In this document: positions 19,461 to 30,694 of the stretch, in pieces
Numbering within the stretch: the stretch's first letter is position 1
Layout: each line of letters opens with the position of its first letter
NCBI GenBank assembly: GCA_030693415.1
Contig: JAUYAR010000154.1
Location: 1-36,889, forward strand
Source of the DNA: Candidatus Cloacimonadaceae bacterium
GTDB taxonomy: Bacteria > Cloacimonadota > Cloacimonadia > Cloacimonadales > Cloacimonadaceae
Reading direction: 5' to 3'
Length of the DNA: 36,889 nucleotides
Made by a program: the position numbers and the translations under genes
Notes under the pieces: model-generated
Database searches by the model: none
Told to the model about the DNA's origin: nothing
The model's input: the letters and a program-made list of their open reading frames with translations, nothing else

Positions 19461-21605
19461 TCACTTTGTGTAGCGTTGGATGACTTCTAACACTTCGGGA
19501 AGGTCCATGCCGATGGATTTGAGGTGTTCGACGGTTGGAAAGCCATCCGGAGTCCAGCCTTTTCTTCGATAGACGCTGTCCACAAGCTGGCGGTATTGGT
19601 CTTCGCGATGCTCACGCATGATCGCCATTTTCTCCGAAGTGGATTTACCGGTGGGATCGATGCCGATCTTTTCAGTTAGTTGCTTGTCATAGCGTTCTTG
19701 ACGGGAGAGATATTCTTCCTCGGTGACCGGTCCGACTGCGCGGTAGGGAGGCATATCATCGATGCGTCTGCCGCCGCCCATGCGCATACAAAAGACCTTT
19801 TGGAAGTTATAGACTCGCTCGGATTGCCGAATTAGTTCATGTTTGTCCAGCGGCTTTCCGGTAATCGCTTTGTAGATGTCCACATAGTTTTGGACGTGTT
19901 CGGGAACCTTGGCTGGTTCGTCCGTTTCGGCATTATTGGCTGGTTCGATGTCGTTCCAGGGGAGTTTGCAAAGACCCTGCAAGCCAAACCAGGTGCGGAA
20001 CATGGGGAAATAATGCAGTGCCTCGGCTTTGTCCTCAAAAGTGGGAATGCGGTTATTGACCATATCCATGAAGATCAGCCAGGCTTCGTCGTGTTGCGGA
20101 CCCTTGAGCGCGAGTGTGTATCCGCCCTGTTGCGCCAGAGATTCTTTGCTCATATATTGGGAATATTCCAGCCCCTTGGCTTCCATGCCGATGTCCTGCA
20201 AGAGTTTGGGATCAGCGCCATACTGGTCTGCAAAGATGGCTTTCATGCGACGCACGCCCAAGCCCACGATCTTGCCAAATCCTTCTCCGCGAGCCATTTG
20301 ATGGATGATCTCAAACGTTGCCTCGGCATTTCCCCAAGTCAGATCAAGACCGCCGGTCTTCTCTTTGTCCAGAATGCCGTATTCATAGCATTCCATGCAG
20401 AAGGCGACACTGGTGCCAAAGGAAATCGTATCAATACCGTAGGTGTCGCAATAGAAATTGAGCTCGACCACGTCCTTGGGATCCCAGATGCAGAGGTTTG
20501 ATCCACAGCCCGCCGCGGTTTCATATTCAGGTCCGTCCACGCAAACAGGCTGTCCTTTATATGGTCCGCTACGGGGCAAAAATCCGTCCACAGCTTTGCA
20601 GCATGAGAGCGAGCAGCCATACCAGCAACCGTCAGCCATGCCTTGAGTGAAGAGCTTTTTAAACTCCCAGGAGGCGAGGGTAATGGCTTCGGGCTTTTGC
20701 CCATATTTGAAATTGCGGATGGGGAGGAGGTCATAGTCGTTCATGATCTCCATCAGGTGGGCAGTGCCGATCTCGCGCATGTGGCATTGAGTCGCGTCCC
20801 CGGCTTCGATCTCTTTATGGAGCTTGAGACCTGTCTTTTGCAGCGTCTCCAGATCAACGGAGTTGTTTGTATCTACTTTGAGTCCGGAATATTTTACCAC
20901 GAGGGCTTTGATCTTTTTATCACGGAAGACTCTTCCAGTGCCACCACGCCCGGCTTGTTTGAGCCGTGCGACCTTGCGGCGTTTGTCCCAGAAAGAGAAA
21001 TTTAGACAGGTGATGAGAGCAGAGTTTGCGGCTTCGCCGGAAGACACGACGGAGACGAACTGAAACTTATCGGGACCTTCGGCAAATTCCTCGATCAAAC
21101 GCTCGGCAAAAATGTGGCTGTTTATTTCCTGATCATCGGCGGAGAGTATCTTGACGACACCTTTGTCGCCGTCGATATAGACGATCACTTCCTCGTCTGA
21201 TTTGCCTTGAAGCTCAAGTGCATCAAAACCTGAAAACTTTGTGTAAGGACCAAAATGTCCGCCGACGTTGCAATCAACTGGAATTCCGGTGAGTGGAGAA
21301 ATCGTTGTGACGATGGATTTTCCGCTTCCAGGATAGCTGGTGTTTCCGCAAAGCGGACCGAAAGCGATGCAGAGTTCATTTTCCGGGCTGTCCCACTTGG
21401 TGTCGTCTTTGACCCCATGCCACATCAGATACAAGTCAAAACCCTTGCCACCGACGAATTTGTCGATCATCAGGTCGGTCACTGGTTTTTCTTTGATAAC
21501 TCTGTCGCCAAGGTTGATATAAAGGCTACGGCGATTATAGCCTTTTTCGATTGGTTTGAGGGCATAGCTGAATTCTGCCAGGACTTTGCGCATTTTATGT
21601 TCCAT
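19461..21605 (-). CDS. Aldehyde:ferredoxin oxidoreductase-family protein
   Basis: This 714-residue AOR-family enzyme uses a tungsto- or molybdopterin cofactor and an Fe-S cluster to oxidise aldehydes (or reduce acids) with ferredoxin. Family signs: FDALELQGKSDEEVIVYIDG (128-147), AGRGGTGRVFRDKKIKALVV (218-237) and the Cys group in GCWYGCSLSCCK (Cys327, 331, 335, 336). The first spacing is CxxxC, not the classical CxxC. The frame is open upstream to 21707, but that overlaps the ferredoxin gene; AAGGAG before the ATG at 21603-21605 fixes the start. It lies 13 bp after the ferredoxin gene, its likely electron partner. The substrate is unknown; BamB-like or YdhV-like roles are alternatives. Confidence 0.88.
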   Translation of the reverse strand: MEHKMRKVLAEFSYALKPIEKGYNRRSLYINLGDRVIKEKPVTDLMIDKFVGGKGFDLYLMWHGVKDDTKWDSPENELCIAFGPLCGNTSYPGSGKSIVTTISPLTGIPVDCNVGGHFGPYTKFSGFDALELQGKSDEEVIVYIDGDKGVVKILSADDQEINSHIFAERLIEEFAEGPDKFQFVSVVSSGEAANSALITCLNFSFWDKRRKVARLKQAGRGGTGRVFRDKKIKALVVKYSGLKVDTNNSVDLETLQKTGLKLHKEIEAGDATQCHMREIGTAHLMEIMNDYDLLPIRNFKYGQKPEAITLASWEFKKLFTQGMADGCWYGCSLSCCKAVDGFLPRSGPYKGQPVCVDGPEYETAAGCGSNLCIWDPKDVVELNFYCDTYGIDTISFGTSVAFCMECYEYGILDKEKTGGLDLTWGNAEATFEIIHQMARGEGFGKIVGLGVRRMKAIFADQYGADPKLLQDIGMEAKGLEYSQYMSKESLAQQGGYTLALKGPQHDEAWLIFMDMVNNRIPTFEDKAEALHYFPMFRTWFGLQGLCKLPWNDIEPANNAETDEPAKVPEHVQNYVDIYKAITGKPLDKHELIRQSERVYNFQKVFCMRMGGGRRIDDMPPYRAVGPVTEEEYLSRQERYDKQLTEKIGIDPTGKSTSEKMAIMREHREDQYRQLVDSVYRRKGWTPDGFPTVEHLKSIGMDLPEVLEVIQRYTK

Positions 21606-21618
21606 TTTCCATATCTCC

Positions 21619-22005
21619 TTATTCTTGAACGATCCGGATTGCCTCAACCGGGCAGGATTTTGTGCAAACACCGCAAGCGATGCACTTGAAAGGATGCATA
21701 CCTCCATGGTAAGTTTGCATCGAGCCGGTCGGACAAATGGCGACGCACATATAGCAACCGATACAGAGCTTTTTGGTTACCATCACCACCCCTTGAGGCG
21801 TGATCGTGAGAGCCAGCGTCGGGCAAGCTGCGACACAGGTTTCGCATTGGTTGCAAACGTTCATTTCGGGCAGCTTGGCAGTCTCCGTGATGCGGATACA
21901 GGATCGCTCAGGATCGTCTATCCTGAAGTACAGATTCGCGCACGCGCTTTCGCAGACGTGGCAGGCAATGCACTTATCCGGATATGTCTTCAGCACTTTT
22001 TTCAT
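21619..22005 (-). CDS. Polyferredoxin with four [4Fe-4S] motifs
   Basis: The 128 residues hold four ferredoxin cysteine sets: CIACHVCESACA, CNQCETCVAACP, CIGCYMCVAICP and CIACGVCTKSCP, enough for four [4Fe-4S] clusters. There is no signal peptide, so it is cytoplasmic. A good ribosome-binding site (TAGGAG) precedes the ATG, and the AOR gene follows 13 bp after the stop. The pairing resembles the Fe-S subunits that accompany WOR5-, YdhV- or BamB-type enzymes. It should shuttle electrons for the AOR-family enzyme; the final acceptor is not in the window. Confidence 0.93.
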   Translation of the reverse strand: MKKVLKTYPDKCIACHVCESACANLYFRIDDPERSCIRITETAKLPEMNVCNQCETCVAACPTLALTITPQGVVMVTKKLCIGCYMCVAICPTGSMQTYHGGMHPFKCIACGVCTKSCPVEAIRIVQE

Positions 22006-22076: not shown

Positions 22077-24080
22077 TTAGAATCTGATTCCCAGAGAAGT
22101 GCCCGCGTGAAAATTGACTGGCTCAAGATCAAAGAAGGCTTCCGTCACGTTCCACAGGGTATTATATTGACCGTAGGCGGCAAGGGAGATGTATTTGTTG
22201 ATATTGGAAACCAGGTAGACAGCTCCGTTCAACTCGTCAATATGCAGGATGTTGAATCCGATTTCACTTTTCCGATAGGCATAGTCCACTACTGCCGTGA
22301 GATGGGCATAACGCAATCCTACCAAGTTGAGACGCATATCAGCGCTTAGTTTGGTGGTCTTGACGACGCTATTATGATTGTAGTCCTTTGTTTCATTATA
22401 GACATAATCAAAGTCAAAGCCCACCACGCTGCCTACGTTTTTGTGCAGGAGAGCGGCAAATTCGACCATGTTGGTATTCACAGATTGGTAAGTGTTCATA
22501 TCGCCGAAAAAGGTGTAATCTTGCCTCATGGCGTCCAAACGAGCCCCCAAAAGGTATGCGTCCTCGTGCACAAAAATCAGCGGTCGGTTGGCAGGAGCGA
22601 GCCCTTCGAGATAATTTGGCATCCGGTATCCGGAGATGATATCCGAGACATACAAATACGAACGAAATCTCCATTTGGGATTCCAGTCCGTGTCGTAGCG
22701 AGTAAAATTGGCTTCGGTCAAGCCGGTGGGTGCAAAGTCAAAATAATCCACTGTTTCTTCCGGGTTGAAGAGAAAACTTCCCCCTACATCGAGCCTCTGA
22801 GTAGTTGATTTGACCGCCTTGGCAAAACTTAGAGTATAGTCTTGGAAACTTGTGGCCCAGTATCTCTGTAGCCAGAGTGGGTAATCAAGCGTGCGCGTTC
22901 GTTTATAGGTGTTGCGGTTGATGCTGAAAAAGAGACGCAACTTTTCGCGATCTGGCAAACCGGCGCCAAAAGACATTTGCGTGAGATAATAGTCGTTTGT
23001 CCGATATTTATCTTCTCCAAAGATGAGGACTTTGTCGATGGCTTTGATCACTTTGCTTTCGCTTTCGATGCCAAAATATCCCAGTTTTACACGGGCGAAA
23101 TTGGAGGAGGCAAACTGAAAGCGGATGTCATTATCATGAGTAGCGGTGACCATGAACTCATTAGTGCTGAAGGCATTGAGATAATTGGTTAGCTTGAAAT
23201 CGGAATCGTTTCTCTTGGAGTAAAACTCTAAACCGCTATAGGTGCCGGATACATCTTTTGGGGTCTTACTATTGCTCTTGTTCAGGTCTTTAGTGTTGTT
23301 GATTGTTTGATTGGTTGAATAGTCCGTGGTTTCCGGGATCTGTGTTGAAACCGCGTAGCTGCCGTCGTTGAGCATGAATCCCATTTCCATGCTGGAGTGA
23401 TACCATGGATTTTGAGCGCCGTCAGTGGCGATACCAACGTCCTTGACTATCTTGGCAGCCATCTCATTCAAGCTTAATCCGGCAGAAATCATATTGCGGC
23501 ACAAGATGCTGCAAAATATACTGTTAGTTCCGCCACCATCGATTGCGATCGCGTCCGCTGCCGCACTATACATGACAAAGCTGTTCTTGCGGACTGGCTT
23601 GGATTCCGCCAGTCCTATTCTGGGGGCGGACGAAGTAGCAAAAGAGTTTCTCCGGCAGACGTCGAGGATGATTATATTCACTTTCGCTTTGGCAAGTTCC
23701 TTGTCCAGCCTGGCCAGGGGAACGCTAAAATAGCGGACGTCATCGGCGTCTTTGTATTCAAAGCCGACCGGCAGCAAGTAAGTTTCACCGTCCACCTGTG
23801 CGCAGTGACCGCTGTAGTACAGAATTGTTTCATCGAGGGAAGTGATGGTAGAGACAAAACGGTTGAAGACGTCTTGAAATGACTTATGGTCAAGGTTGGT
23901 TTCATGGATCACTTGGAAACCAAGCTCCCGCAATGTGGCACTCACCAGTGCTGCATCGGCATTCGGGTAATGAAGTTCGCTCACGCCATAACGATCGTTA
24001 GAGATCACCAAAGCCTTGCGGCTTGCAAAGGTAAATGCCAATAAAGACAGCAATATCAATGAAAACGCTACTTTTTTCAT
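22077..24080 (-). CDS. Secreted caspase-like (peptidase C14) domain fused to a probable outer-membrane beta-barrel
   Basis: This 667-residue protein starts at the ATG preceded by GGAGG (24078-24080). A signal peptide (MKKVAFSLILLSLLAFTFAS) leads into a caspase/metacaspase p20-like domain: RKALVISNDRY, LYYSGHCAQ with catalytic His92, IIILDVCRRN with catalytic Cys142, and YSAAADAIAIDGGGTNSIFC (171-190). The usual Gly after His92 is Cys93. A linker rich in Thr, Asn and Ser (about 245-285) follows. Residues about 290-667 are rich in alternating aromatic/polar strands and end in Phe (AGTSLGIRF), as many outer-membrane barrels do. No known family was recognised for the C-terminal part. The caspase call is firm; the barrel is an inference from strand pattern and terminal Phe. 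Confidence 0.82.
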   Translation of the reverse strand: MKKVAFSLILLSLLAFTFASRKALVISNDRYGVSELHYPNADAALVSATLRELGFQVIHETNLDHKSFQDVFNRFVSTITSLDETILYYSGHCAQVDGETYLLPVGFEYKDADDVRYFSVPLARLDKELAKAKVNIIILDVCRRNSFATSSAPRIGLAESKPVRKNSFVMYSAAADAIAIDGGGTNSIFCSILCRNMISAGLSLNEMAAKIVKDVGIATDGAQNPWYHSSMEMGFMLNDGSYAVSTQIPETTDYSTNQTINNTKDLNKSNSKTPKDVSGTYSGLEFYSKRNDSDFKLTNYLNAFSTNEFMVTATHDNDIRFQFASSNFARVKLGYFGIESESKVIKAIDKVLIFGEDKYRTNDYYLTQMSFGAGLPDREKLRLFFSINRNTYKRTRTLDYPLWLQRYWATSFQDYTLSFAKAVKSTTQRLDVGGSFLFNPEETVDYFDFAPTGLTEANFTRYDTDWNPKWRFRSYLYVSDIISGYRMPNYLEGLAPANRPLIFVHEDAYLLGARLDAMRQDYTFFGDMNTYQSVNTNMVEFAALLHKNVGSVVGFDFDYVYNETKDYNHNSVVKTTKLSADMRLNLVGLRYAHLTAVVDYAYRKSEIGFNILHIDELNGAVYLVSNINKYISLAAYGQYNTLWNVTEAFFDLEPVNFHAGTSLGIRF

Positions 24081-24177
24081 TTCCACCTCCAAGAAGTTTT
24101 GCCACAATGTTTAGTGCGGATATTCCTGTCAATCAAATTCTGTGAGGGGCAAAAAGGTAAGAGCTGTTAGACGAAAC

Positions 24178-26082
24178 TCAGATAATGGAAAGTTCTTGTT
24201 TGATACTGCGGATCAGAGATTCTGTGTCCAGGCCCGCCCAGTGGTAAAGGTCGTCTGCGGTGCCGGAATTGGGATAACTGCGCACTCCGATCTTGACCAG
24301 TTTGGCGCAGATGCGCTCTTCCGCCAATCTGTCTGCGATGATTGATCCCAAGCCGCTGTGGACGTTGTGGTCTTCGATACTGAAGATGGTCCCGGTCTTG
24401 GCGGCAAAATCGAGAATCTCGCGATCGATCGCGAGCGGACAGGAAATATATATAAGCTGGAGATAGATACCCTCTTCGCGAAGGCTGTCAACAGCTTTGA
24501 GCGCGTTTCCGGCAGGAGTTCCGCATACGATCACGCAACCGTCGTTTCCGAGACGTAGGACGTCCGCCATGCCATAATCGAAGGTATAGTCCATTTTATA
24601 GAAGAGCCCGTCTTCATCGTTTTTCAGGATTGACAATTTGCTGCGGCCCATGGTCACAAAATAGTTGCCCGGTTTGTTGATCAGCCAGCGGATGATGCGA
24701 TCGGTGTGATTCGGATCGGCGGGGCAGATGAGCCTGAAATTATAGAGATTGCGCGTCAGACCAATGTAATCGATGCACTGATGCGTCTTTCCGTCTTCGC
24801 CGACGTCGAGTCCCACGTGGGTGACCACGACCTTGAGATTGGCATGGTTTATGTCATTGAGCCGCTGCATATTGTAAACCTCGTCGATGCCAAACATACC
24901 AAAGTCCGACCAAAAGGTCTGAATCCCACAAGCGGAAAGGGAACCCGCAGCAACGGATGTGTGGTGTTCCATGATCCCGCTTTGGATAAAATTATCGGGA
25001 TGATTTTTGGCAAATTCTCCGGTTTTCACGCTGGCGGCGAGGTCGCAATCAAACACGGCGATAGGTGTTGAGCTGTCTATATTGATCATGCCGAGATCGG
25101 CAATGGCATTTCCCCAGGCGCTACGATTGTCCGTGTCCTTGTCATAAACGATTGGTTGACCGGATTTGAGATCGCCTTTCAATGCAAAATGATTTCCATT
25201 TACTTTGGTTTTGGGAGGTTTAAATTCTTTTCTGGCTTTGCGATAGTCCTTGATCCGATTGGGGACACCAAGGATATTGAGCGCCTCCTCAAGTTGCTCT
25301 TCGTCCAACGCGGAACCGTGATATTTCGCCATGTTTTCCATGAAAGGTACCGCTTTGCCCATCACTGTGTGCGCCAGGATCATCACCGGAGTTTCGGCAT
25401 CTTCGGCTGCTTCTAACGCACCGGAGATAAGACCAAAATCATGTCCGTTGATTTCCAACACATACCAACCGTCGGATTCCCAGTTTGAGCGAATGTGCTG
25501 GGGCATCACCTCATGGATGGAGCCGCTGATCTGCAATTGGTTGTAATCCACAATCGCAGTAAGATTATTGAGCTTAAATTTGGCGGCAAATCGTCTTGCC
25601 TCGCTGATCTGACCCTTTTGCTGTTCGCCATCGCCCATGATGCAATAAACTCTATAGGGAGTAGCGTTTATCCTGCTTGCCAAAGCCATTCCGGCGGCAG
25701 CGGAAAGTCCCTGTCCCAGGTTTCCGGTTGACCATTCCACCCCCGGAACCTCGCGTTCGATATGTCCCTCAAAGATGCTGCCTAAAAGGCGAAACTGCGA
25801 CACGGCATCGTCCAGTTCAAAATATCCGTTCAAACCCAAAGCTGAATAGACTGCTGGAGAGAGGTGCCCATTGCTGATCACGATACGATCACGATCCGGC
25901 ATCTGCGGATTCTTGGGATCATGTTTGATGTGTTTGTATAGAGAAAGCATAAAATCTATGGCGGACATCGATCCGCCGGGATGACCAGAACCAGCCAGGG
26001 TGGTCATTGTCAGTATCGCTGCGCGGGCGATTTTGGCTTGATTGAGCAATTCGTTTTGCATTTCGTTGTCGATCTTGGTCAT
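24178..26082 (-). CDS. tkt: Transketolase
   Basis: This 634-residue, full-length transketolase transfers two-carbon ketol units in the non-oxidative pentose phosphate pathway, using ThDP and a divalent metal. Landmarks: GSGHPGGS (31-38), the ThDP-metal motif GDGEQQKGQISEA, NQLQISG, the Pyr-domain GIMEHHTSVAAGSLSACGI with catalytic Glu, and the C-terminal domain to ELSII. It is a fused single chain, unlike the split archaeal form. I chose ATG 26080-26082 because GAGGAA lies just upstream; an earlier in-frame start at 26139 would run into the hairpin before the gene. Confidence 0.95.
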   Translation of the reverse strand: MTKIDNEMQNELLNQAKIARAAILTMTTLAGSGHPGGSMSAIDFMLSLYKHIKHDPKNPQMPDRDRIVISNGHLSPAVYSALGLNGYFELDDAVSQFRLLGSIFEGHIEREVPGVEWSTGNLGQGLSAAAGMALASRINATPYRVYCIMGDGEQQKGQISEARRFAAKFKLNNLTAIVDYNQLQISGSIHEVMPQHIRSNWESDGWYVLEINGHDFGLISGALEAAEDAETPVMILAHTVMGKAVPFMENMAKYHGSALDEEQLEEALNILGVPNRIKDYRKARKEFKPPKTKVNGNHFALKGDLKSGQPIVYDKDTDNRSAWGNAIADLGMINIDSSTPIAVFDCDLAASVKTGEFAKNHPDNFIQSGIMEHHTSVAAGSLSACGIQTFWSDFGMFGIDEVYNMQRLNDINHANLKVVVTHVGLDVGEDGKTHQCIDYIGLTRNLYNFRLICPADPNHTDRIIRWLINKPGNYFVTMGRSKLSILKNDEDGLFYKMDYTFDYGMADVLRLGNDGCVIVCGTPAGNALKAVDSLREEGIYLQLIYISCPLAIDREILDFAAKTGTIFSIEDHNVHSGLGSIIADRLAEERICAKLVKIGVRSYPNSGTADDLYHWAGLDTESLIRSIKQELSII

Positions 26083-27800: not shown

Positions 27801-28775
27801 ATGATGAAAATAGCCGTCACCGGAGCCAACGGATTCCTCGGAAGCAACATTGCAAACTATTTCCTTGATCAAGGTCATGAGATTTGCGCGTTGATGCGTA
27901 TGCAAGGGGATGCGGCTCTTATTGATCCCCGCGTTTCCATTGTCAAAATAGACTACGATGATCACCAGGCTTTACAAACTGCTTTTGCGGATCGCGATAT
28001 CGTGATCCACAATGCCGGAAAGACGCGCACCCTCACTTTCAATCAAATGATCGAGGCCAACGTCACCACTACGCGCGCCGTGCTAAATGCCGTCAACGCC
28101 TGTCCCGGAATCAAGCAATTCATTTTTATCAGCTCCCAATCGGCTTCGCGTCCATCTTTGAGCGGAGAATTGATTACTGAAACCGATCTGCCCGCGCCGG
28201 TCACCTGGTATGGAAGATCCAAGTTATTGGCGGAGAGAATGATCCAGACACATTGCGCTATCGCATGGACGATCATTCGTCCGGTTCCGGTTTACGGGGG
28301 GGGAGACCGTGATTTTCTCAAATTGTTCAAGGCTCTCAAGAATGGAATTGACCTTCAAATCGGCTTTAAGGAGCGCGGTGTAAACATGATCTATATGACT
28401 GAACTGTTAGACTTTGTCAATCTCTGCATCGATAATCCCAAGGCGTTTCGCGAGATATTTTTCGCCTCTGACGGCAAGGTCTATCACCAGTCCCAAATAT
28501 CTACCTACATTGCTCATATAATGAAGATTGAAACCATACGCATTCCGCTTCCCGATCCTCTGGCAAAGGCGATCTTCCACGTCGGAGAGATTTTGAGCCG
28601 TGTTCGGAGAAAGCCAACTGTGGTTGGTGTGCAAAAAATGAAGGAAGTGATGGCGCCAAATTGGACTTGCAGCATCGACAAAGCAAAGCGCCTGCTTGGC
28701 TGGGAACCCATTCCACGCCTGAAAGAAAACCTCTTGGAAACTTATCAATGGTATCAAAAACACGGCTGGCTCTGA
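27801..28775 (+). CDS. NAD-dependent epimerase/dehydratase (extended SDR)
   Basis: A 324-residue extended SDR. It has the Rossmann motif TGANGFLG (7-14), the IHNAGKTR segment, active-site Ser at about 111-112 (FISSQSAS), Tyr137 and Lys141 in WYGRSKLLAE, and RPVPVYGGGD. The C-terminus has PRLKENLLETYQWYQKHGWL, typical of sugar-nucleotide epimerases or dihydroflavonol-reductase-like members. The substrate cannot be told. There are two start codons in a row (27801, 27804). The end overlaps the following outer-membrane-protein gene by 28 bp, so the two are probably translated from one message. Confidence 0.88.
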   Translation: MMKIAVTGANGFLGSNIANYFLDQGHEICALMRMQGDAALIDPRVSIVKIDYDDHQALQTAFADRDIVIHNAGKTRTLTFNQMIEANVTTTRAVLNAVNACPGIKQFIFISSQSASRPSLSGELITETDLPAPVTWYGRSKLLAERMIQTHCAIAWTIIRPVPVYGGGDRDFLKLFKALKNGIDLQIGFKERGVNMIYMTELLDFVNLCIDNPKAFREIFFASDGKVYHQSQISTYIAHIMKIETIRIPLPDPLAKAIFHVGEILSRVRRKPTVVGVQKMKEVMAPNWTCSIDKAKRLLGWEPIPRLKENLLETYQWYQKHGWL

Positions 28776-30694
28776 TCCTTCTGCTTGTCTGCCTTGGGAC
28801 GCAGGTTCTTCTTGCGCAAGGTGATGTCGCGCCTCTGATCTTACGTGACTTTGTATTGAATGTCCCCTCCGGCTGGGAAAAAAACTATGAGCCCGCCGAA
28901 TTGGTCTTCGTGGGCGAGCTTGATACAGAGGGCAGGATAATTTTGATCAGCATCTTCGATGAGAAACAGGAGCTGAGAGCCTTATTGGAGCGAGGGTTGG
29001 CTGTTTTTCAACTCAAGGATAAGAACTTACCGACAGGAGTGAGACGTTTCATTGTCTCTTTGAAACAGGAAACCCCCGCTCCAATGTTCGCAAGTGAAAT
29101 CAAACCAAGGGAGACACCGGTTTCGACAGATCCGCTTAAAAAACGCATCGACATCTGGATCAAATCCCAAAGAGACGCGTTTGACCTTTTTTCCCCCCGC
29201 CAAATTGGTGAAAGTCCCTTTTCCAAGCCATGCTATGCCTATCGCGGGTTCTTTATGCACAGCGGTTTGAATAACATCGACCGGCAAACCCGGCGTCTGG
29301 GCTTCACGCATCCAGCCACGCTTTTCTCCTCCACGCTTTATGACTCATATTATCAGGCATTCTATACACAAAACGAGACCGGTAACTATGAAAACCGCGT
29401 CTATCCGTTTCACATCGCTTTGACCGATCTGCAAACCGGACTGGGGGATTATGACCACCGTTTCGCACGCGGATCATTTGCCAAGAACGAGCTTTTTGGT
29501 GTGCCGGGGTTCTTTTACACGCTTGGATTTATGGCGCAAAACGGATGGTGGGAACAGCAAAACTCCGCTCAATCTTCGATGAAACACTATCTTTCGGTTC
29601 CCATAGTCAAATCCATCAGGCTGGAAACCGAATATGCCGATTTTTCCCGTGGCGTTTCCATGATCCAATTGCTACCCGCTTATTGGCGGAGCGCGCTTTT
29701 TTCCGTCGATCACAACTATGAGCATATCTATGCGGCTCTGCGCAATCCGATCATCGATATCGAAGTTTTGCGCATCAACGAAGTGGCGAAATCCAACATC
29801 TTTCATACCAATCTGAAACTGAACAGCACGCAAATCAAAGCCGGAAGAGCATTTAACCTATTTGGAAATCAATTCTCGATGGGTTATGAACATCTGGAAA
29901 GCAAGCGCAACTTTGATGCGGTGGCGGATTTTGAGGACAAACTCCAGGTCGCTTTCGATCGCAGCCAAAAAAACTTCAACGCCAGGCTGAAAGCGGAACT
30001 CAATGACTATGAGAGCTATCTGCTGGACGCAGAGCTTTCCACCGCTTTGGGCTTTTTTCTTTTTGGATTGGAAGGATTCTATAACTTGGATAAAAGAGAG
30101 CCTCTTTATAGCACGGCAGATATCTACACTCCTGGGGAGACCAGGCAACTCGCGTCCAAAAGCCTAAAAAGCGAATTGGTTGGGGCGATGTCCTATGCCG
30201 GCATATCCGGGCTTGTAATCGAGGGCGCTTTTGGACAAAGATCGGCCATCCAATCGGAAGGACTGACCGATGACACAATCAGTGCGGAATATCCTTTCCT
30301 ATATGGCTCAGCGACACTCAAATTAAGCAAGAGAATTGGCAACTATCTGCTTGATCTGAAACAAGATACGAGGTGGCAGGAGGAAATCGATATCCTGCGT
30401 GAACATCCGCAATGGCAATCCCAAAACTCTCTGATTCTCACTCGCGAACTGCCATATAACAATGCCATCTTCGCCGGCGTGGGGGTTTTGGGGCATTCGG
30501 ATTTTCGGAGTATGGAATCTGCTATGTTCAAAGTGGAAGCAAGCGCGGCAGTGGATCTTTGGGCTGGTGTGCGGATCACGAATCTTTTTGAAATCAGCTT
30601 TGCCTTGAAAAACATCGGCGATGCCGACATCTATGGAGTTTATCCAATTCCAGCATCCATGCACGCTTCGATCCGTTGGTTCTATCTGAACTGA
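28748..30694 (+). CDS. Predicted outer-membrane protein of unknown family
   Basis: I place the start at the ATG at 28748, because it gives a clean signal peptide (MVSKTRLALILLLVCLGTQV then LLAQ); the longer frame from 28661 adds 29 residues that shadow the epimerase. The 648-residue product has a small N-terminal domain (about 25-110: GDVAPLILRDFVLNVPSGW, a psbP/DUF-like fold is possible) and a long region of alternating amphipathic strands (about 190-648), ending HASIRWFYLN. This resembles a TonB-dependent or porin-type barrel without a recognisable plug. No family name was recognised; the barrel is inferred. Confidence 0.72.
   Translation: MVSKTRLALILLLVCLGTQVLLAQGDVAPLILRDFVLNVPSGWEKNYEPAELVFVGELDTEGRIILISIFDEKQELRALLERGLAVFQLKDKNLPTGVRRFIVSLKQETPAPMFASEIKPRETPVSTDPLKKRIDIWIKSQRDAFDLFSPRQIGESPFSKPCYAYRGFFMHSGLNNIDRQTRRLGFTHPATLFSSTLYDSYYQAFYTQNETGNYENRVYPFHIALTDLQTGLGDYDHRFARGSFAKNELFGVPGFFYTLGFMAQNGWWEQQNSAQSSMKHYLSVPIVKSIRLETEYADFSRGVSMIQLLPAYWRSALFSVDHNYEHIYAALRNPIIDIEVLRINEVAKSNIFHTNLKLNSTQIKAGRAFNLFGNQFSMGYEHLESKRNFDAVADFEDKLQVAFDRSQKNFNARLKAELNDYESYLLDAELSTALGFFLFGLEGFYNLDKREPLYSTADIYTPGETRQLASKSLKSELVGAMSYAGISGLVIEGAFGQRSAIQSEGLTDDTISAEYPFLYGSATLKLSKRIGNYLLDLKQDTRWQEEIDILREHPQWQSQNSLILTRELPYNNAIFAGVGVLGHSDFRSMESAMFKVEASAAVDLWAGVRITNLFEISFALKNIGDADIYGVYPIPASMHASIRWFYLN

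Follow-up and report, generated by a model that had tools for sequence, protein, structure and literature searches.

The window, i.e., the whole stretch of 36,889 nucleotides analysed here (contig JAUYAR010000154.1 of assembly GCA_030693415.1, Candidatus Cloacimonadaceae bacterium), contains a gene encoding an exported caspase-like domain linked to a probable outer-membrane barrel, which is preceded by a transketolase gene and followed by the genes of a ferredoxin and of an aldehyde:ferredoxin oxidoreductase (AOR) family protein (Table 1). The first-pass annotation of this DNA, which gave no strand for the gene, had described a signal peptide, a His92/Cys142 dyad located in the motifs YYSGHCAQ and DVCRRN, and a terminal Phe residue, and all these features are recovered by translation and alignment. 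The 667 codons of the gene are open when read on the minus strand; across the same positions, the plus strand is interrupted by many stops. By eye, the signal peptide is predicted to be cleaved between MKKVAFSLILLSLLAFTFA and S, and the mature chain opens with the first caspase strand, as it does in the related proteins, while the C-terminus of the protein reads ...GTSLGIRF. A chance open reading frame is ruled out by the score of the caspase profile together with the occurrence of five full-length relatives.

Table 1. Coordinates of the caspase-barrel gene, its domains and key residues, and its conserved neighbours in the window.
Feature	Position	Strand	Basis
Whole gene, caspase-barrel fusion, 667 aa + stop	22077..24080	-	Translation; PF00656
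GGAGG ribosome-binding motif, 5 bases 5' of ATG	24086..24090	-	Sequence
Signal peptide, residues 1-20 (approximate)	24021..24080	-	Sequence; similar junction ahead of (R/Q)KALV in relatives
Caspase domain, residues 21-231	23388..24020	-	PF00656 E=4.2e-29; Foldseek to MALT1/caspases E=7e-12
Asp42 (= MALT1 Asp365, S1 pocket)	23955..23957	-	Alignment to MALT1; Asp in 46/46 relatives
His92, catalytic-dyad His	23805..23807	-	Alignment with relatives
Cys93 (= MALT1 Gly416)	23802..23804	-	Gly or Ala in every other aligned relative
Asp140 (= MALT1 Asp462, S1 pocket)	23661..23663	-	Alignment to MALT1 and relatives
Cys142, catalytic-dyad Cys	23655..23657	-	Alignment with relatives
Linker, residues 232-304, mainly low-confidence	23169..23387	-	AlphaFold pLDDT mostly 22-38
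Probable 16-strand outer-membrane barrel, residues 305-667	22080..23168	-	Model strands; indel pattern; weak Foldseek (relative's barrel)
Transketolase, neighbour on the upstream side, also kept in related loci	24178..26082	-	PF00456; synteny
Multi-4Fe-4S ferredoxin, neighbour on the downstream side, also kept in related loci	21619..22005	-	Fer4; synteny
AOR family protein, next downstream	19461..21650	-	PF02730/PF01314; synteny

The caspase-like nature of the N-terminal domain, already recognized in the first-pass annotation, is far beyond chance, with a PF00656 match of 102 bits for a cut-off of 21.4 that covers positions 2-227 of the 233 positions of the profile. The nearest solved structure is that of the MALT1 paracaspase, by sequence (E=1.5e-6) as well as by fold, and the Foldseek search performed with the model of the domain, which is of modest confidence, retrieves MALT1 and caspases at the E-value listed in Table 1. 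His92 and Cys142 are aligned in register with the catalytic dyad of the relatives. In MALT1, Asp365 and Asp462 shape the S1 pocket for arginine, and Gly416 contacts an inhibitor in the S1 site (PMC4357240). The site of Asp42 is occupied by Asp in all of the aligned relatives, and that of Asp140 by either Asp or Glu (46/46). On the basis of its sequence, the N-terminal domain is predicted to be of the paracaspase type, cutting after Arg or Lys residues. The Cys residue next to the catalytic His, which had been pointed out as odd, is indeed found in the window protein only, the 46 aligned relatives having Gly (36) or Ala (10) at position 93. Together with Val141 and Arg144, it forms a set of three residues near the active site that are unique to the window protein (Gly93Cys, Ala141Val, Asp/Asn144Arg). 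However, Cys93 need not be fatal, since Ala is tolerated at this position.

A structure prediction of the full chain had been proposed as a check of the C-terminal barrel. The AlphaFold model, built from a four-sequence alignment with a mean pLDDT of 56, displays 16 strands between residues 305 and 666. A similar model of the barrel from the relative L052 (four-sequence alignment, pLDDT 54) consists of 15 strands followed by an unmodelled C-terminal stretch, and its top Foldseek matches, which are weak (E from 0.005), all correspond to outer-membrane or mitochondrial barrels or complexes, the barrels matched being OmpG, porins, LptD, FapF and SAM. Along the alignment of nine relatives, which share 20-54% identity, length differences of up to 12 residues affect seven of the eight odd-to-even connections, whereas the seven even-to-odd connections keep an identical length in every sequence. 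The probability that all seven length-varying connections fall by chance on alternate positions is 0.0012, for a test in which the register of the strands is taken from the model and the gaps are those placed by MAFFT, both derived from the same sequences. This result depends very little on how confident the models are, which by themselves would not be persuasive. Such one-sided indels point to a barrel with variable outside loops, tight inside turns and both termini in the periplasm. In addition, the alternation of polarity along the strands exceeds that of shuffled sequences (4/2000 reach the observed level), and the last residue is aromatic. No Pfam family matches the C-terminal half above the cut-off; the OMP_b-brl matches are marginal and PF13505 appears, below threshold, in two of the ten members only, even though a match to a curated family is helpful rather than required for calling a barrel. 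Taken as a pattern of the sequences, these features support the fused barrel proposed in the first-pass annotation as probable: residues 305-667 probably form a 16-strand outer-membrane barrel, the closure of which we infer, and the caspase domain would most likely be located on the periplasmic side.

The same two-part architecture, for which a search among homologues had also been proposed, was found in five additional genomes belonging to the same family (L005-L009), and the barrel profile was detected in 12 of the 125 genomes of the phylum, all belonging to one family. For the six fusions, the caspase and barrel alignments independently yield one unrooted topology. Since the trees are identical, both halves were inherited together, and the sequences of the six caspase-barrel proteins likely derive from a single fusion event. 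In a tree of 47 caspase domains, the six fusions share one clade (100/97) with four single-domain pseudocaspases. A strict clade of fused forms is not rejected (p=0.12) and a single clade of barrel-alone rows is weakly rejected (p=0.039), the latter result favouring an early fusion with at least two subsequent losses. As read from these sequences, the simplest history would thus consist of an old fusion followed by the loss, at least twice, of the caspase half; the opposite direction, from barrel alone to fused, seems less likely. The placement of the barrel-only row of G043 is unsure because of its long branch. The standalone barrels retain a signal peptide and one of them (L054) also retains the motif found in the linker of the fusions.

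Depending on the genome, the caspase half occurs in quite different conditions. The fusions L006-L009 possess canonical caspase motifs, and their identity amounts to 52-79% for the caspase versus 23-54% for the barrel. The caspase being conserved beyond the barrel in these intact members, it was under selection. In contrast, the caspase half of the window shares only 36-40% identity with the intact members, and the nearest relative of the window protein, its sister L005, no longer has either catalytic residue, with Ile and Ser in their place. The caspase-to-barrel branch ratio reaches 0.75 for the window, compared to 0.19-0.54 for the intact lineages and 1.15 for L005, and proportional branch lengths are rejected by a likelihood-ratio test (2dlnL=48.9, 8 d.f., p=7e-8). 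At the sequence level, the caspase half of the window has thus sped up relative to its barrel. Because of its three unique residues and of the loss of the dyad in L005, the window copy may be inactive. The protein would be an ancestrally active protease, with an uncertain activity in this species.

In most of the relatives, the gene adjoins the transketolase and/or the ferredoxin-AOR pair. A fusion is similarly inserted between transketolase and AOR in L052, where one additional gene separates it from the transketolase, and in L099 (G031), and a barrel alone in L054. The ferredoxin-AOR side is retained in L053 (fusion) and in L034 and L036 (barrel alone), and the transketolase side in L119 (fusion) and in L104, L121 and L123 (barrel alone, incomplete in the last two); both L052 and L053 are relatives with intact motifs. 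Elsewhere, the same slot is occupied by a dyad-less fusion or by a barrel alone. Since the transketolase-ferredoxin-AOR trio occurs without any intervening gene in many other genomes and some of the fusions are located away from AOR, a conserved operon function with transketolase and AOR was rejected. A defence system was rejected as well, because the window protein matches none of the anti-phage caspase systems of PADLOC and its neighbours are metabolic.

Some other genes of these loci deserve a mention. In G039, a different gene of 223 aa with a lipoprotein-like start (L117:2064-2732) fills the slot between transketolase and ferredoxin that is taken by the barrel in relatives. In genus g3 (L119:447-4632, L120:2516-6707), the genes after the fusion encode two membrane-anchored proteins and, by eye, an MBOAT-like membrane protein, suggesting a surface polysaccharide acylation cluster. 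Farther along the window (28661-30694, plus strand), an open reading frame of 677 aa without Pfam match adjoins an epimerase-like gene, and look-alikes of it recur in L101, L113 and L114.

With respect to the phylum, PF00656 occurs in 57 of the 125 genomes, and nearly all of the Cloacimonadota caspases examined open with a signal-peptide-like stretch, many of them being fused to an FGE-sulfatase domain. A survey of 671 prokaryotic caspase homologues published in 2012 had listed 71 domain types, FGE-sulfatase being one of the most frequent, and had reported that some of the proteins likely possess a signal peptide and that 84% keep the dyad intact (PMC3501461), so that exported prokaryotic caspases had already been inferred. 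The setting, considered unusual in the first-pass annotation, is thus unusual for its barrel partner, whereas exported caspases as such are not unusual in Cloacimonadota. Text searches of the literature, with incomplete coverage, found no description of a caspase fused to an outer-membrane barrel. A second fusion of this kind, however, occurs in another family of the phylum (L023:1408-2895), where a caspase is linked to a PF13568/TDE1717-like outer-membrane barrel (PF13568 E=5e-12). This barrel has no detectable similarity to that of the window and its caspase belongs to a different branch of the tree, which argues for an independent fusion; a relative of the L023 barrel stands alone in G108, from the same genus.

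Many genomes of the family, including that of the window (L002:1501-2295 in C50; L026-L033 in others), contain an exported single-domain type of about 265 aa, whose catalytic Cys is lost (Ala/Ser), sometimes along with the His, and which most often ends in GGGS(L/Y)S(W/F). This pseudocaspase type arose more than once, since its members fall into two separate groups of the tree. In G003, four exported caspase genes are gathered within 12 kb (L038:1373-13250), and in one of them (L038:11820-13250, minus strand) the catalytic His is replaced by Gly.

According to the reading we consider rather probable, the protein is a barrel-tethered periplasmic protease of the paracaspase type, ancestrally active and of uncertain activity in this species. 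Once the protein is exported by Sec, its last 360 residues would fold as a 16-strand barrel, leaving the caspase domain hanging on a 70-residue linker at the periplasmic face. Ancestrally, this periplasmic cysteine protease mounted on a channel-like barrel would have acted on proteins close to the inner surface of the outer membrane. The invariable component would be the barrel, to which the protease is added as an accessory that some relatives have disabled and others lack. In this species, where the dyad and the pocket acids are kept under an apparently weakened constraint, activity would be possible, perhaps reduced or altered.

A reading that shares this architecture but differs on the activity in this species assumes that the caspase half has already become a pseudo-enzyme here, either binding a partner or nearing deletion as a passenger, and that only the barrel matters. 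The accelerated caspase branch, the three unique substitutions, the Ile/Ser replacement in L005 and the relatives devoid of a caspase domain make it a serious contender, somewhat short of an even chance; still, the reading frame is intact, and an unconstrained decay over such a long branch would hardly have spared His92, Cys142, Asp42 and Asp140 altogether. It is rather unlikely that the caspase passes through the barrel, like an autotransporter passenger, to digest outside proteins at the cell surface. The succession of signal peptide, passenger, linker and C-terminal barrel ending in Phe is that of type V systems, but the protein has no Autotransporter (PF03797) match, 16 strands instead of 12, a long low-confidence linker instead of a pore helix, and a globular passenger devoid of β-helix, and the indel pattern fits an ordinary periplasmic N-terminus, though compatible with threading. 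Finally, the low confidence of the model and the lack of a Pfam family above cut-off would suit a soluble β-rich domain, adhesin or similar, within a periplasmic or secreted protein. Such a domain seems very improbable, taking into account the absence of length change in the seven even-to-odd connections across 20-54% identity, the amphipathic alternation with its aromatic C-terminal residue, and top Foldseek matches made only of membrane barrels.

Few functions have been assigned to the caspase homologues of bacteria. The barrel-tethered protease favoured here allows the cell compartment of a bacterial caspase to be predicted from sequence, and a single locus offers a graded natural series, from active-looking and doubtful forms to forms with the dyad lost or the domain absent. 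This series separates the role of the barrel from that of the protease and provides a ready test of the function of a membrane-tethered bacterial caspase. More tentatively, outer-membrane-tethered periplasmic caspases may form a class that originated on two or more occasions within Cloacimonadota, each time with an unrelated barrel. The protease would gate or trim either the barrel or the cargo of the latter, and several lineages would be in the course of inactivating and deleting it at a single syntenic locus.

Among the known systems, peptidase family C14 (PF00656), which comprises the caspase homologues, metacaspases and orthocaspases, shares with the window protein the caspase fold, according to both profile and Foldseek, and the His/Cys dyad. 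The S1 acids corresponding to Asp365 and Asp462 are shared with the MALT1 paracaspase, whose Glu500 has no equivalent in the alignment. Unlike these proteins, the window protein is exported, fused to a barrel and has a Cys residue after the catalytic His. The type Va autotransporter proteases, mostly serine protease passengers on β-helix stalks with a 12-strand PF03797 barrel, resemble it by the association of an N-terminal enzyme with a C-terminal barrel. The exported caspase-FGE-sulfatases (PF00656+PF03781) common in Cloacimonadota, an architecture noted in PMC3501461, exhibit the same junction between signal peptide and caspase and belong to the same caspase family, but their partner is an FGE-sulfatase instead of a barrel and they occupy other branches of the caspase tree. 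The L023 caspase-PF13568 protein similarly combines an exported caspase with an outer-membrane barrel, and differs by its dissimilar barrel and its caspase branch. PorU, an outer-membrane sortase (PMC8545088), is likewise a cysteine protease of the clan CD type found at the outer membrane, but it belongs to family C25, is delivered by type IX secretion and carries no fused barrel.
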